Part shown: piece by piece, positions 6,989-13,222 of the stretch
Position numbering within the stretch: the first letter of the stretch is position 1
How the letters are laid out: the number at the start of each line of letters is the position of its first letter
DNA from: Betaproteobacteria bacterium SG8_41
Lineage (GTDB): Bacteria > Pseudomonadota > Gammaproteobacteria > Burkholderiales > SG8-41
Direction: 5' to 3'
Length of the DNA stretch: 50,539 nt
Assembly (NCBI GenBank): GCA_001303585.1
Contig: LJTT01000024.1
Location: 1-50,539 of the forward strand
The notes under the pieces: generated by a model
What the model was told of the DNA's origin: nothing
The model's database searches: none
The model's input: the letters and a program-made list of their open reading frames with translations, nothing else
Program-made: the position numbers and the translations under genes

Positions 6989-7209
6989 GATTTCATTTCC
7001 TCTTGCTGATTGAATGCTCGTCGGGCGAGGAATGGTACGCCTTTTGTCACCGACGAACCAGACAACCGCTGTGGTGGCAGGCCATTCTCGCTCCTAGGGC
7101 GCGCGGCGCCGCTCTGTGGCGGCAAGGTTTCGCCTCCGCCCCTTACCCTTTATGCTATGCGCCGTTGCCGATCGTCAATCTCGCCGGTGACCAATCGCAA
7201 GGAGGCCTC

Positions 7210-7803
7210 ATGTCACGACTCGCCGCGCTGCCGGCAGACGCCGCGCCCGATCTGCTGGACTCGTTCAAACGCTACCAGGAGCTGCTGGGCTACGTGCCCA
7301 ACAGCGTGCTCATCATGCAGCGCCGCCCGAAGATGGTGAAAGCGCTCGCGCAGCTTGCCTCCTCGGTCTGGGATCCGGCGAGCGAGGTGAATATCGGATT
7401 CAAGCGGCTCGTTGCCTATATGGCGAGCCGAACGCACGGCTGCAACTACTCGATGGCGCACGCGGCAGAGGCCGCGCATCGTGCCGGCATCGACGACGCC
7501 AGACTCGAGGCGGTGGTCGACTACCGCACGAGCCCGCTGTTCAGCGAGGCCGAGCGGGTCGCCCTCGATTTCGCCGTGGCAGCGGCTTCGCAGCCCAATG
7601 CCGTGACCGACGAGCTCTTCGAGCGGCTGAAAAAACACTGGACCGAGGGACAGATCGTGGAGCTGGCGGGCGCCGTGGCGATCAACGGTTTTCTCAATCG
7701 CTGGAACGACACCATGGCGCCGGCACTCGAGCACGAGCCGATCGAGTTTGGCGAGAAGCACCTGGCGCGCCATGGCTGGCGCGTCGGGAAACATGGCCCC
7801 TGA
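7210..7803 (+). CDS. CMD/AhpD-like protein with a CxxS motif
   Basis: Carboxymuconolactone-decarboxylase superfamily protein of 197 residues, starting at the ATG behind an AAGGAGG ribosome site. The first three-quarters carry the helical core. The redox motif reads C-N-Y-S with a following His: Cys78, Ser81, His84, so the second cysteine of the AhpD-type CxxC is a serine. In thioredoxin-like chemistry a CxxS site may react with thiols but cannot form the internal disulfide. The C-terminal half (FSEAERVALDFA, then EGQIVELAGAVAINGFLNRW) is typical of this subgroup and resembles the two-domain protein at 10956-12326. Its exact reaction is unknown. Confidence 0.85.
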   Translation: MSRLAALPADAAPDLLDSFKRYQELLGYVPNSVLIMQRRPKMVKALAQLASSVWDPASEVNIGFKRLVAYMASRTHGCNYSMAHAAEAAHRAGIDDARLEAVVDYRTSPLFSEAERVALDFAVAAASQPNAVTDELFERLKKHWTEGQIVELAGAVAINGFLNRWNDTMAPALEHEPIEFGEKHLARHGWRVGKHGP

Positions 7804-9051: not shown

Positions 9052-9879
9052 GTGATGCGGACGATCAACAGCTCGAATAGGGGGAACGCTTTGGATCGCG
9101 CACTCTGGATTTCGTGGTATGACCTGCCCGAACACGGGCGTGAGGCGTACTTGAAATGGGCGCATGAGATGTATATGCCGGCCATGCTCGAACGCCCGGG
9201 CTTTCTGTGGGCCGCGCATTTCAAGACGGAGGACAAGCCGATACAGTCTGGTGTGCCGGCGGGGGCGCCGGGGCGCTTGCGCCGTACCGACGACCCTTCG
9301 ATTCCGAAAGGTAACGCGTACGTTCTCGTGTTTGGCGCTGAGACGCCGCACACGTTCGCCCATCCGACACCACGCAAGCTTCATGAGGCGCTGTCGCAGT
9401 TCGATCAGCAGATGCTGGCGATACGCGCGGGCGAGCGCGTGAATATCATGATCGACGAGGACAGAATCGGCGGGCCCGAGGCAAGGTACCGAAAGCGCAC
9501 GGAGGCGTTGAGCCCGTGTATCCAGCTCGGGTCGTTCAACGCTGGCGCAGCGGACGAGGACGAGATTCTCGCGTGGTACGCGCAATGGCGCTTGCCCTCG
9601 ATGAACAGGCTGCCGGGGTGTGTCGGCATCCGCAAGCTGGTGTCTGTTTCGGGGTGGGCCAAGCACGGCGTGCTCTACGAATTCGTCTCGCTGGAGGCGC
9701 GTAACACGCACTTTCCCGACCACGAGAAGGCGAACCCCGAAATGCAGGCCTGGACCGATACCCTGGTGCGAAAGCTGTTGCACGCTCCGGGCTCTCCCGT
9801 CGTGGCGGTCCGTATCGCCTCGGTGGTTGCAAAGAAGGGCCGGGGGCAAGAAGGCCTGGAGGCGACCCCGATAGTCTGA
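9052..9879 (+). CDS. Tandem dimeric alpha-beta barrel (EthD-like) protein
   Basis: Not firmly recognised. The 275 residues appear to contain two ferredoxin-like dimeric-barrel repeats. The first runs from about residue 17 (ALWISWYDLPEHGREAYLKW, then MLERPGFLWAAHF) and the second from about 160 (QLGSFNAG, WYAQWRLPSMNRLPG). The pattern 'helix, LP or RPG, strand' is typical of EthD/ABM-like enzymes and heme- or polyketide-acting small proteins. A TTG at 9091 stands 6 nt after AGGGGG and may be the true start, removing 13 residues. The ATG at 9052 has no good ribosome site. It neighbours CMD- and ABM-family genes, suggesting a shared oxidative pathway. Confidence 0.65.
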   Translation: MMRTINSSNRGNALDRALWISWYDLPEHGREAYLKWAHEMYMPAMLERPGFLWAAHFKTEDKPIQSGVPAGAPGRLRRTDDPSIPKGNAYVLVFGAETPHTFAHPTPRKLHEALSQFDQQMLAIRAGERVNIMIDEDRIGGPEARYRKRTEALSPCIQLGSFNAGAADEDEILAWYAQWRLPSMNRLPGCVGIRKLVSVSGWAKHGVLYEFVSLEARNTHFPDHEKANPEMQAWTDTLVRKLLHAPGSPVVAVRIASVVAKKGRGQEGLEATPIV

Positions 9880-9928: not shown

Positions 9929-10029
9929 ATCGGGGCCGAGACACATGCTGACCGGTGTTCACCGGCGGCTGCACGGATGCCCCGACGTATTCGAGATGTG
10001 TTGACTTACTGAGAAAAGGAAGGCGAGCG

Positions 10030-10431
10030 ATGAGCGATTTCGAGCAGGACCGCTGGAACAAAGGCATGGAGATCCTGAAGCAGATGGGGCGGCAGGACAC
10101 GATGATGAACCAGAAGGAGCTCTATCCTGATCTCTACAATCTGTCAGTCGGCTATCTTTTCGGGGAGATCTGGTCGCGGCCGCATCTCAGCATCCGCGAC
10201 CGGGAGCTGATCACGATGGCGGCTAACATCGCGCTGGCGCGCCCGCACGGGACGCACTCGCATTACCGCAGCGCCAAGCACCTGGGGCTCACGCACGAGG
10301 AGATCATGGAATTGATCATCCACGTCGGGCACTACGCCGGCTGGCCGGCCATTGCGCATGCGATCATTCAGTACGACGAGGTCCTCAAGGAAGATGCCGC
10401 CAAGGCAAAAAAGGAAAGGGATGAAGGATGA
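10030..10431 (+). CDS. Carboxymuconolactone decarboxylase family protein
   Basis: A 133-residue CMD-family protein starting at the ATG behind AAGGAAGG. The segment LSIRDRELITMAANIALARP, then GLTHEEIMELIIHVGHYAGWPA, matches the PcaC-type (gamma-carboxymuconolactone decarboxylase) branch. There is no cysteine in the protein, so it cannot do AhpD-type thiol chemistry. This supports a decarboxylase or ring-cleavage-product role in protocatechuate-like metabolism. The true substrate may differ, as many CMD proteins in accessory clusters are uncharacterised. It is upstream of an ABM-domain gene on the same strand. Confidence 0.85.
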   Translation: MSDFEQDRWNKGMEILKQMGRQDTMMNQKELYPDLYNLSVGYLFGEIWSRPHLSIRDRELITMAANIALARPHGTHSHYRSAKHLGLTHEEIMELIIHVGHYAGWPAIAHAIIQYDEVLKEDAAKAKKERDEG

Positions 10432-10623: not shown

Positions 10624-10926
10624 ATGATTCTCGAAGTTGCAATTCTGCACATCAAGCCCGAAGAGATGTCCAGGTTCGAGGCTGCGTTTCCAAAGGCGGA
10701 GGCGATTGTCAGCAGCATTCCGGGTTATATCTCGCACGAGCTGCAGCGCTGCATCGAGACGAAGGGGCGCTATCACTTTCTGATTCGCTGGGAGAGCGTA
10801 GAGGCGCACATGGTGAATTTCCGGCAGTCTCCGAAATTGCAGGACTTCCGCGCGCTGGTGGGCCCGTTCTTCGCGCAGCCGCCGGTCGCCGAGCACTTTG
10901 AGCGCGTCACCGCCAGTCACATCTGA
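10624..10926 (+). CDS. Antibiotic biosynthesis monooxygenase (ABM) domain protein
   Basis: A 100-residue single-domain dimeric alpha-beta barrel of the ABM type. It starts with a strand, MILEVAILHIKPE, then a helix, then SIPGYISHELQRCIET with the family's 'PGY/F-x-x-x-E' pattern, RYHFLIRWES, and the C-terminal FRALVGPFF. The ribosome site AGGAGGGGG is very strong. Such proteins range from cofactor-free quinone-forming monooxygenases to heme-degrading enzymes; many are of unknown role. It lies between a CMD gene and the convergent AhpD-like selenoprotein candidate. Confidence 0.85.
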   Translation: MILEVAILHIKPEEMSRFEAAFPKAEAIVSSIPGYISHELQRCIETKGRYHFLIRWESVEAHMVNFRQSPKLQDFRALVGPFFAQPPVAEHFERVTASHI

Positions 10927-10955: not shown

Positions 10956-12326
10956 CTAAACCGGCTCTGGAAATTCGCGGGGCCAGTTCGCGACGATATC
11001 CATGAGGTAGCTCTTCAATCGCGCCGGGTCGAGACGAGCCGTTGGATAGAGCGCCGCGATCTCGGCATCGCTTTCAAGGGGGATCCGCAGGGCATTCTGG
11101 ATCCGGTCCACCTTGCACGAGACGGCGCAAAGCCCGGTCAATTCGACGATCTCGGCATCGCTGAAATTCCCCCGCAGTTGCTGGTAGATGTCGTCTCGGT
11201 CCTTCGCGGTGTTGCACGCCACCTCCGCGGCCCAGGCGAGCGCCGCGCGCTCGCGCGCCGAGAATTTCGGTGAGGCCGCGCAATCGTCCGCGGCAACCCG
11301 CTCGAGTTGCTCTTCGGCCAGGCCGGCCGCGCGGCCCAGCGCGGACCGGTGGGCAAGAGAGTAGGGCGCGCCGTTGACGTGGCTTGTGCGTACGAGCACG
11401 AGCGCTTTCAGCGTGCTTGGCAACCGGCTTCCGACGCCCTCGTAGACGAACGCGACATGGAAAGGCAGAAACAGCTTGCCGAGGTGAGGAATGTGCGCCC
11501 AAAGGCGGACCGCGTTTGACGCGCCCCCGAGCAAACGCCCGGCCGCGCGCAGAAACCATCCGGCATCATTTTGCGCCGCTGAGTCGGGCAGCGTGATCCG
11601 GCATTGCCGGCTCGGCGGCGCGGCGGCCTGTGGCGCGGTGCGCGCCCGGGCTCCGGCTGCGGGCGCAGCGCTGCTTTCCGGCGCGGGAAACTCCCCGGGC
11701 CAGGTGGCGACAATGCGCTCGACGTAAGCCTTGAGGCGATCCGTGTCGACCCGGACCGAGAGCCCGATTTTGTTGACCTCGCCTTGCTCCTCGATCGGCA
11801 GCAGCAGTGAATCCTGGAAGCGGTTCGACTGCGCAAACAGACCACAGACGCCCGTCAGCTCGACGAGCTCGGCCTCGTCGAAATGGCGCCTGACCTCGTC
11901 AAAGACGTCGTCGCGAACGCGTGCCGTGTTGCGGGCGACATGCTCTGCCCAGAGCACCGCCGCGCGCTCCCGCGGCGAGAAGTGCGGCGAGCTCAGGTAG
12001 TCGTCGAGGCTAATTGCCGCGACTTGCTCGCTCGTGATGCCGGACGCTTGACCAAGCGCCGTGTTGTGCGCAATTCAGTAGGCGCAGCCGTTGACATGGC
12101 TCGTTTTGAGGACAGCCATTTCCTTGATTCGGCACGAGAGCATGCCGCCGCCGCCCTCGCGCTGCAGTCCGATGCCCGCGAGGAGCTGGAATTTCGCGAC
12201 ATGCGGAATGTGCCCCCAGACCCGTGCGGAGTTTGGCACACGACCGCGAAACTGGTTTGATGCCTCGAAAAAGCGGGCGGTCTCGCCGGTTGCGGTGAGC
12301 GGATCGGTGATGGGTACTCTCGACAC
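10956..12326 (-). CDS. Two-domain AhpD-like protein, probable selenoprotein (CxxU)
   Basis: Read from a GTG at 12326 (ribosome site AGGAG 4 nt before) through an in-frame TGA at 12077-12075, this gives 456 residues. The TGA is codon 84, in NGCAY-TGA-IAHNTALG: exactly the second Cys of the AhpD CxxC motif, with Cys81 and His87 in place. The frame stays open for 372 further codons. A 7-bp hairpin with a GGUC loop starts 14 nt after UGA. AhpD-like selenoproteins are known in bacteria, so Sec84 is the likely reading. A second domain is offset by 239 residues; there Ala320 and Ser323 occupy the Cys81 and Sec84 positions, so it is redox-dead. Likely a peroxidase- or disulfide-exchange-type enzyme. 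The alternative is a nonsense mutation, with ORF callers reporting only 10956-11957. Confidence 0.75.
12043..12060 (-). promoter_or_regulatory. Candidate bacterial SECIS hairpin
   Basis: On the minus strand, GGCGCTT (12060-12054) pairs with AAGCGTC (12049-12043), seven pairs including one G-U, closing the 4-nt loop GGTC. The loop begins 21 nt after the in-frame TGA at 12077-12075. Bacterial SECIS elements lie within coding sequence shortly after UGA and have a G at the start of the loop; GGUC is also in the E. coli fdhF loop. Fit to the known pattern is good; function is inferred. Confidence 0.65.
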
Positions 12327-12478
12327 GATTCTCCTCTCGTGGTGATGGTGTCCGGGGCGCCTGGTGAACGCTGGCAAGTTAGCACATCGGGACGATACCG
12401 GACACGGGGCAGCGCGCGCGTCCGGTAGAATCGTGGCACTGGGCAAGCACACCAACACACGAGCGTGAGGGAATAAAC

Positions 12479-13222
12479 ATGGCAAGGGAGCTTGACGGCA
12501 AGGTCGCGCTTATCACCGGGGCGGTGCGCCGCAACGGGCGCGCGATTGCGCACGCGCTTGCGCGCGAGGGCGCGGCGATCGTGATCAATACGCGGCGCTC
12601 GCGCGAGGAGGCGGAAGCGGTGCGCGCTGAGCTGGAGGAGGCGGGCGCGCAGGCGCTCGTGTGCGTCGCTGACATCACGGACGAGGCTGCCGTGGCGCGG
12701 ATGTTTGATGCGATCCGGGCGCGGTTTGGCGGCGTCGACATTCTCGTCAACAACGCCGCGGACCGCGAGCGGGTGAAATTCACCGAGATGACGATGGCAC
12801 AGTGGCGTCATATCGTGTCCATCATCCTTGATGGCGCTTTTCTCTGCTCGCGGGCGGCGATTCCGCATATGCTGAAACGAGGGTGGGGCCGGATCGTGAA
12901 CATCGGCGGCGCGAGCCACCGTCTGCCCGGCTACGTCGGGCGGGCGCACGCCGCGACCGCGAAAGCCGGCCTGGAGGGGCTGACGCGCGCGCTCGCAATG
13001 GAATACGCGCGGCAGGGGATCACGGTTAATTGCGTCTCGCCGGGACGAATCGGCGGCGAACGCTCCAAGACCTCGGGCGAAGTGCCGCCCGTGGAGATTC
13101 CCGTTGGGTACGAAGGCGCGCCCGAGGACATCGCCGCATCGGTGTGTTTCATTTGCCGGCCGGCAGCGCGGTTCATCACGGGACAGAACATTCACGTCAA
13201 CGGCGGCCAGGTCCTGATCTGA
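12479..13222 (+). CDS. SDR family protein lacking the canonical catalytic Tyr
   Basis: A 247-residue short-chain dehydrogenase/reductase fold. The nucleotide loop TGAVRRNG (13-20), NNAA (91-94) and C-terminal FITGQNIHVNGGQ are clear. In the active site Ser146 or a nearby residue is possible and Lys162 is present (ATAKAGL), but the position of the YxxxK Tyr is Ala158, with His157 beside it. The RAHxxTAK arrangement seems to be a real subgroup rather than a sequence error, because the flanks are intact. It may use His or be a non-classical reductase. It is divergent from the AhpD-like selenoprotein candidate with 152 nt between starts, so shared control is possible. Confidence 0.88.
   Translation: MARELDGKVALITGAVRRNGRAIAHALAREGAAIVINTRRSREEAEAVRAELEEAGAQALVCVADITDEAAVARMFDAIRARFGGVDILVNNAADRERVKFTEMTMAQWRHIVSIILDGAFLCSRAAIPHMLKRGWGRIVNIGGASHRLPGYVGRAHAATAKAGLEGLTRALAMEYARQGITVNCVSPGRIGGERSKTSGEVPPVEIPVGYEGAPEDIAASVCFICRPAARFITGQNIHVNGGQVLI

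Follow-up and report, generated by a model that had tools for sequence, protein, structure and literature searches.

AhpD-like selenoproteins, which carry selenocysteine (Sec, U) in a CxxU motif at the AhpD active site, are an established family. A 2026 review lists AhpD-like (TIGR01926) and carboxymuconolactone decarboxylase (CMD)-like (PF02627) CxxU proteins in its selenoprotein table (PMC13188914), the AhpD-like family (COG2128/YciW) is also found in PMC9312934, and it was reported with stem-loops resembling the selenocysteine insertion sequence (SECIS) in PMC1088965 (here and below, statements on published work refer to excerpts of the papers cited). The excerpts of these papers make no mention of a second, Cys-less AhpD domain, and the fusion selenoproteins named in PMC2398784 involve other selenoprotein families. 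An arsenite methyltransferase/AhpD protein (NF041537; PMC13188914) is another selenoprotein in which an AhpD-type CxxU domain is fused to a partner, but the partner is a methyltransferase and the protein contains three Sec residues. Furthermore, prokaryotic two-domain AhpD proteins, i.e., fused AhpD dimers, are known from Corynebacterium ureicelerivorans, Comamonas aquatica, and Candidatus Rokubacteria (PMC11429811). In the first two of these, one domain lacks Cys: the N-terminal domain is dead and the C-terminal domain has a Cys-Cys site. Here we analyzed a stretch of 50,539 nucleotides (nt) from Betaproteobacteria bacterium SG8_41 (contig LJTT01000024.1; hereafter, the window). We conclude that a minus-strand gene in it (positions 12326 to 10956) probably encodes a 456-residue selenoprotein in which UGA codon 84 is read as Sec, likely aided by a downstream hairpin, so that a CxxU site arises in the first of two AhpD-like domains, the second being noncatalytic. 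In contrast to the published fusions, the order of domains is that of sestrins, and the site is Cys-Sec.

The frame begins with GTG and ends with TAG, and its sole internal stop codon is the TGA, which lies in the context NGCAY-U-IAHN and replaces the second Cys of the AhpD CxxC site. This agrees with the original prediction, which had also pointed to a ribosome-binding site before the GTG (present 4 nt upstream) and had expected gene calls to keep only the last 333 residues. Indeed, ordinary open reading frame (ORF) finding yielded 333 amino acids (aa), and a protein collection holds the corresponding 333-aa piece (P0002; 98% identical, 8 member sequences). The features of the gene are listed in Table 1.

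Table 1. Coordinates of the predicted selenoprotein gene and its parts in the window
Feature	Position	Strand	Basis
Whole gene, two-domain AhpD-like (peroxidase-related, CMD/PF02627) predicted selenoprotein, 456 aa	10956..12326	-	Frame reading, Pfam/NCBIfam matches
Ribosome-binding-site-like stretch GAGAGGAG, 4 nt before GTG	12331..12338	-	Direct reading of sequence
Glu69 codon, 12 residues before Cys81, as Glu74/Cys86 in 2PRR	12120..12122	-	Alignment
Cys81 codon TGC, first residue of CxxU	12084..12086	-	Sequence
TGA codon 84, predicted selenocysteine	12075..12077	-	Frame and relatives
SECIS-like hairpin; core stem 12058-12054/12049-12045, GGUC loop 12053-12050	12041..12061	-	Fold and covariation
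Domain 1, residues 1-216, AhpD domain with CxxU site	11679..12326	-	Pfam, alignment, model
Linker, residues 217-241; pLDDT <50 at 219-235	11604..11678	-	Predicted model
Domain 2, residues 242-454, AhpD fold without Glu/Cys/Cys (Ala308, Ala320, Ser323)	10965..11603	-	Alignment, model
333-aa ORF remaining if TGA is a stop	10956..11957	-	Ordinary ORF finding

The assignment as AhpD-like rests on the curated TIGR01926 (peroxidase-related) score, which was 91.4 bits for this protein (cut-off, 81.8) and 82.5 bits for the two-domain relative L051; an AhpD proton relay is not claimed. In line with this, Glu69, Cys81, Tyr83, and Sec84 have the 12-2-1 spacing of Glu74, Cys86, Tyr88, and Cys89 in 2PRR. 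Two further families were matched as relatives, both below their cut-offs: NF053654 (YciW-related [seleno]protein; 118.3 bits, cut-off 310) and NF041238 (alkylhydroperoxidase-related [seleno]protein; 39.2 bits, cut-off 175). NF053654 had matches in 23 of 74 genomes at an E value of ≤1e-20, none above the cut-off, while a search for NF041238 in 349 genomes of the phylum (E ≤ 1e-30) gave no match but also no match to any control and does not show absence. NF041537 was not among the NCBIfam matches.

Some match to the gene was detected in 113 of the 149 related genomes searched. We fetched 30 loci, the best match of each of 30 genomes (farther matches, some of them stop-free, lie outside this set), and all 30 had TGA at the aligned site; L022 to L025 are full-length two-domain genes with 60 to 61% identity, and partial ones are also among the 30. 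A scan of named genomes provided 22 loci, 18 with TGA, 3 with TGC (L067, L070, and L071), and 1 (L072) that did not fit the motif pattern. Five of the 22 (L051 to L055) are, besides the window gene, intact two-domain genes, all with TGA; they are the same genes as the matches in G019, G039, G024, G048, and G041 and do not add to them. L056 ends with its contig inside domain 2, and L065 ends before domain 2. Twelve of the 22 are single-domain relatives from Nitrospinota, Tectomicrobia, Rhodospirillales, and other or unplaced bacteria, and 11 of these have the same TGA (L057 to L064, L066, L068, and L069; these have 51 to 58% identity in their best segments and, in complete copies, a length of about 220 aa without domain 2), while L067 has TGC. 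A two-domain protein with Cys at this site was not seen among the relatives found. All intact two-domain homologues aligned at position 84 had TGA, and the nearest Cys form was a single-domain protein.

These data also bear on whether the TGA is a nonsense mutation in a pseudogene of an AhpD fusion, or an assembly error. One relative, L030 in genome G010, is indeed broken and has a hairpin loop of GATC instead of GGTC. However, the same TGA is shared by six intact two-domain genes and by 11 of the 12 single-domain relatives, several of which belong to other phyla, the genome has the full Sec machinery, and the ratio of nonsynonymous to synonymous substitutions (dN/dS) between pairs of relatives was <0.25 wherever computable, well below 1, with several dS values of >1. 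A nonsense mutation was therefore rejected, and ordinary decay is most improbable. Reassignment of TGA was rejected too, because TGA ends 16 of the 26 window genes examined and is an ordinary stop codon there.

Could the UGA instead terminate translation, with a restart at the GTG at 11957 giving a separate 333-residue protein? The collection does list such a piece, P0002 with its 8 member sequences, but the restart (residue 124) falls inside a predicted helix of domain 1 (residues 118 to 131), domain 1 of the product would lack the CxxU helices, and residues 85 to 123, which follow the UGA, are well conserved. We regard two products as very unlikely. The 120 listed proteins (of 142 found in the database) are 295 to 407 aa long, none of them reaches residue 84, and all 120 look cut off at the UGA.

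Decoding of the UGA as Sec is further suggested by a conserved SECIS-type stem-loop soon after it, with G in the apical loop. The GGUC loop occupies nt 22 to 25 after the UGA, on a core stem of CGCUU/AAGCG, and the 27-nt hairpin has a fold energy of -10.4 kcal/mol (z = -1.96), with 8 of 200 shuffles doing as well. A gap-free alignment of the 45 nt starting at the UGA comprises 36 distinct sequences. In these, the 5-bp stem (20-24/29-33) was paired in 96.7% of 180 cells compared to 88.3% after shuffling, and its covariation score was 0.324 versus 0.157 (none of 500 shuffles as high; slid versions, 0.030 to 0.208). The analysis used 36 of 46 distinct segments, in one register. Set aside were seven SALNEC-type segments (L031, L032, L034, L041, L042, one of L054, and L074), in which GGTC or GGTT lies 4 nt nearer to the UGA, and three segments from L076 and L077, whose hairpin was not worked out. 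In pair 20-33, an Ala/Val substitution goes along with a silent GCG/GCA change four codons downstream; the 15 U-A cells of this pair stem from one sequence type, which makes the number of independent events much smaller than that of cells. In pair 24-29, the base at the silent third position of a Leu codon (T, A, or C) pairs with the second base (A, T, or G) of the codon after next. Judging from the aligned sequences, these base changes in the stem are not explained by protein coding.

The loop codons CTT, GGT, and CAA are minority synonyms (12%, 9%, and 11%; product, 0.12%) in 26 window genes, hand-picked from 43 ORFs. The equivalent place in domain 2 reads CTG-GGC-CGC, and the Cys relative L067 has TTG-GGC-CGG at the hairpin codons. 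The single-domain Sec relatives share the hairpin register with this gene; the loop of L069 is GGCC, and L030, the one with GATC (second G changed), is the broken-frame member of the 36. In Escherichia coli fdhF, GGTC, which we take to be its apical loop, is located one codon nearer to the TGA.

The machinery for Sec incorporation was looked for in the genome, and all four components were found. The genes for SelB (429 bits), SelA (584.6 bits), and tRNA-Sec (77 bits) are clustered on contig C114 (9.9 to 14.8 kb), where ARAGORN also reads the tRNA as tRNA-SeC with the anticodon tca, and selD (422 bits) is on contig C69. SelA is present in 67 of 74 genomes of the family, including all 10 that match the whole gene or a part of it at an E value of ≤1e-60. 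Some additional observations concern these loci. The SelD frame (L018) has a TGA in GGGUGCK, so that SelD is a predicted selenoprotein too; a second match to the tRNA-Sec family (G000:C102:752-839; 48.4 bits, cut-off 47) is perhaps another long-armed tRNA; and a thioredoxin-reductase-like ORF, named by reading its sequence alone, adjoins selB.

Several observations weigh against our interpretation. The original prediction had placed a hairpin with a GGUC loop about 21 nt after the UGA; it is present and conserved, but its fold energy is weak over 27 nt, and a 61-nt piece folds no better than shuffles (z = +1.08; 175 of 200 as good). Since fold energy alone is weak, the case for a hairpin beyond chance rests on the comparison. 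There, two of five measures did not exceed the shuffles: stem pairs altered at both positions (2; 148 of 500 shuffles as high) and further stem pair types (4; 500 of 500). An Rfam scan of the window found no family at its gathering score, and CAA is not rare within this gene (7 of 15 Gln codons). The gene is patchily distributed (at E ≤ 1e-60, it matches in 10 of 74 genomes of the family and in none of the nine others of the genus), and in the broken relative L030 (G010:C99), only residues 2 to 136 and 375 to 455 match, side by side. The sel genes are tied to this gene by binning of draft contigs (the genome is a 147-contig draft, 92% complete and 4.6% contaminated). Finally, the relay His of AhpD (His93 in 2PRR, His132 in Sestrin2) corresponds to Asn88, with His87 one place earlier. 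Relatives manage without it, since an equivalent of His132 is present in only 1.9% of nonmetazoan sestrins (PMC11429811). Its absence here could be tolerated through the selenol. A selenol is already ionized at neutral pH. That HN is also found in the Cys relative L067 argues against a change specific to Sec. On balance, the machinery, the conservation of the TGA, and the hairpin comparison support an AhpD-like selenoprotein with a CxxU active site.

In profile searches, both halves of the protein matched the same families, but in domain 2, Ala308, Ala320, and Ser323 occupy the positions of Glu69, Cys81, and Sec84. Among the 120 listed relatives, domain 2 never had the Glu or both Cys, and three had one Cys. 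A His aligned with His87 was retained in 118 of the 120; because it lies one place before the AhpD relay His, this conservation is no sign of catalysis. In P0107, a farther relative, the second domain retains one Cys (NGSAYC) and may represent an intermediate in losing the site. A 32-row tree separated first domains (93/96) from second domains (100/100, starred), which fits a single origin of the fused form; it was built without L056 and with five hand-picked paralogues, and carries a long-branch warning for L071 and the paralogues. The dN/dS of domain 2 was 0.14 to 0.22 in four of seven pairs (two had no overlap, and one had saturated dS). By these ratios, domain 2 is still under purifying selection.

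The fold was predicted from an alignment of 43 rows (P0001, 16 loci, and 26 of the 120 proteins). Compared over the whole length, its best match was human Sestrin2, with 16% identity. Like sestrins, the model has two AhpD-like domains in pseudosymmetric packing, with a predicted live N-terminal and a dead C-terminal domain. However, it was built with Cys in place of Sec, and Foldseek ranks single AhpD chains above Sestrin2 (rank 11) by E value. No sestrin was found by sequence, either among 39 PDB matches of profile A1 (E ≤ 10) or with P0001 (E ≤ 0.001) or A3 (E ≤ 0.01); TAL-repeat matches over 19 residues were taken as chance. Sestrin2 has Cys125/Leu128 where this protein has Cys81/Sec84, and sestrins have a hinge in place of the C-domain helix pair that is kept here (304-318 and 321-333; NGAPYSLAHR). 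Domain 2 thus lacks the electronegative hinge (DDYDY, for GATOR2), and the protein is therefore not a sestrin.

The UGA position, the conserved hairpin, the complete Sec machinery, and the same UGA in relatives together suggest the following mechanism. SelB with Sec-tRNA would bind the hairpin, and the UGA would be decoded. By analogy with the published chemistry of AhpD and sestrins, Sec84 would attack an organic hydroperoxide, Cys81 would form a selenenylsulfide to resolve the product, and the site would be restored by a thioredoxin-type reductant. In the model, domain 2 would replace the partner subunit of the AhpD homodimer, so that one chain may combine one live site with one noncatalytic half able to bind a ligand or partner, as in sestrins. 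Tentatively, the protein may be a bacterial seleno-sestrin: a Sec hydroperoxidase whose dead half is a sensing or partner-binding domain, in sestrin order, fused independently of the eukaryotic sestrins, and overlooked because all listed database copies are cut at the UGA. We give even chances to a selenoprotein whose domain 2 is merely a stabilizing pseudodimer half that binds neither ligand nor partner. Sestrin domains overlay on the 2PRR dimer (PMC4674687), the model resembles Sestrin2, and domain 2 evolves faster (longer branches; dN of 0.24 versus 0.00 to 0.04 for L053/L054); the purifying selection on domain 2 speaks for more, though a scaffold would show that too.

The neighborhood hints at work on organic substrates. 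Downstream on the opposite strand are an ABM gene (10624-10926), a CMD gene (9955-10431; weakly PcaC-like, 57 of 155.7 bits), and a gene for a 275-aa protein without a Pfam match over cut-off (9052-9879, plus strand); a divergent SDR gene (12479-13222) lies upstream. Together with the Pfam CMD match, the CMD, ABM, and SDR neighbors would suit a seleno-form of carboxymuconolactone decarboxylase or a similar enzyme of aromatic catabolism rather than a peroxidase. This is unlikely, given the TIGR01926 score above cut-off, the redox-type CxxU motif, and best folds among AhpD-type proteins and Sestrin2. The debrominase Bmp8 is among the AhpD-fold structure matches, so other redox chemistry is possible. 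Of the 22 named loci, 5 (L052, L056, L061, L062, and L065) have a homologue of 9052-9879 no more than 4 kb from the matched gene, but the link is weak because this protein family occurs in 63 of 74 genomes of the bacterial family with 1 to 12 copies, and 9052-9879 was rejected as a partner gene. TctC genes are also often nearby, a frequency without a chance baseline. Viral contigs contained no relative.

Other AhpD-like genes were seen as well. A further one in the window (7003-7803, plus strand; CMD, 28.1 bits, cut-off 23) has CxxS, with TCG (Ser) at 7450-7452, where the related genes L076 and L077 of the same genome have TGA. This genome has five further AhpD-like genes with TGA at CxxU (L074, L075, two in tandem in L076, and L077), which represent three sequence types and thus a candidate expansion of AhpD-like selenoproteins in one genome. 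On the L054 contig, three AhpD-like TGA genes, one of them the two-domain gene, lie within about 5.5 kb.

In summary, the protein is, with good support, a member of a known selenoprotein family whose architecture we did not find described as a selenoprotein in the literature searched. The original prediction held the fused two-domain form to be undescribed; bacterial fused AhpD dimers have been published (PMC11429811), whereas no fusion of a Sec-containing AhpD domain to a dead second copy was found in the excerpts of the open-license literature searched. If our reading is true, 120 listed protein clusters look truncated and lack their catalytic half (DNA was seen for the genomes checked). Bacteria would then gain an AhpD fusion in the live/dead order of sestrins whose live site contains Sec, and with it a manageable system for asking why the dead AhpD half is kept, a question that still stands for sestrins.
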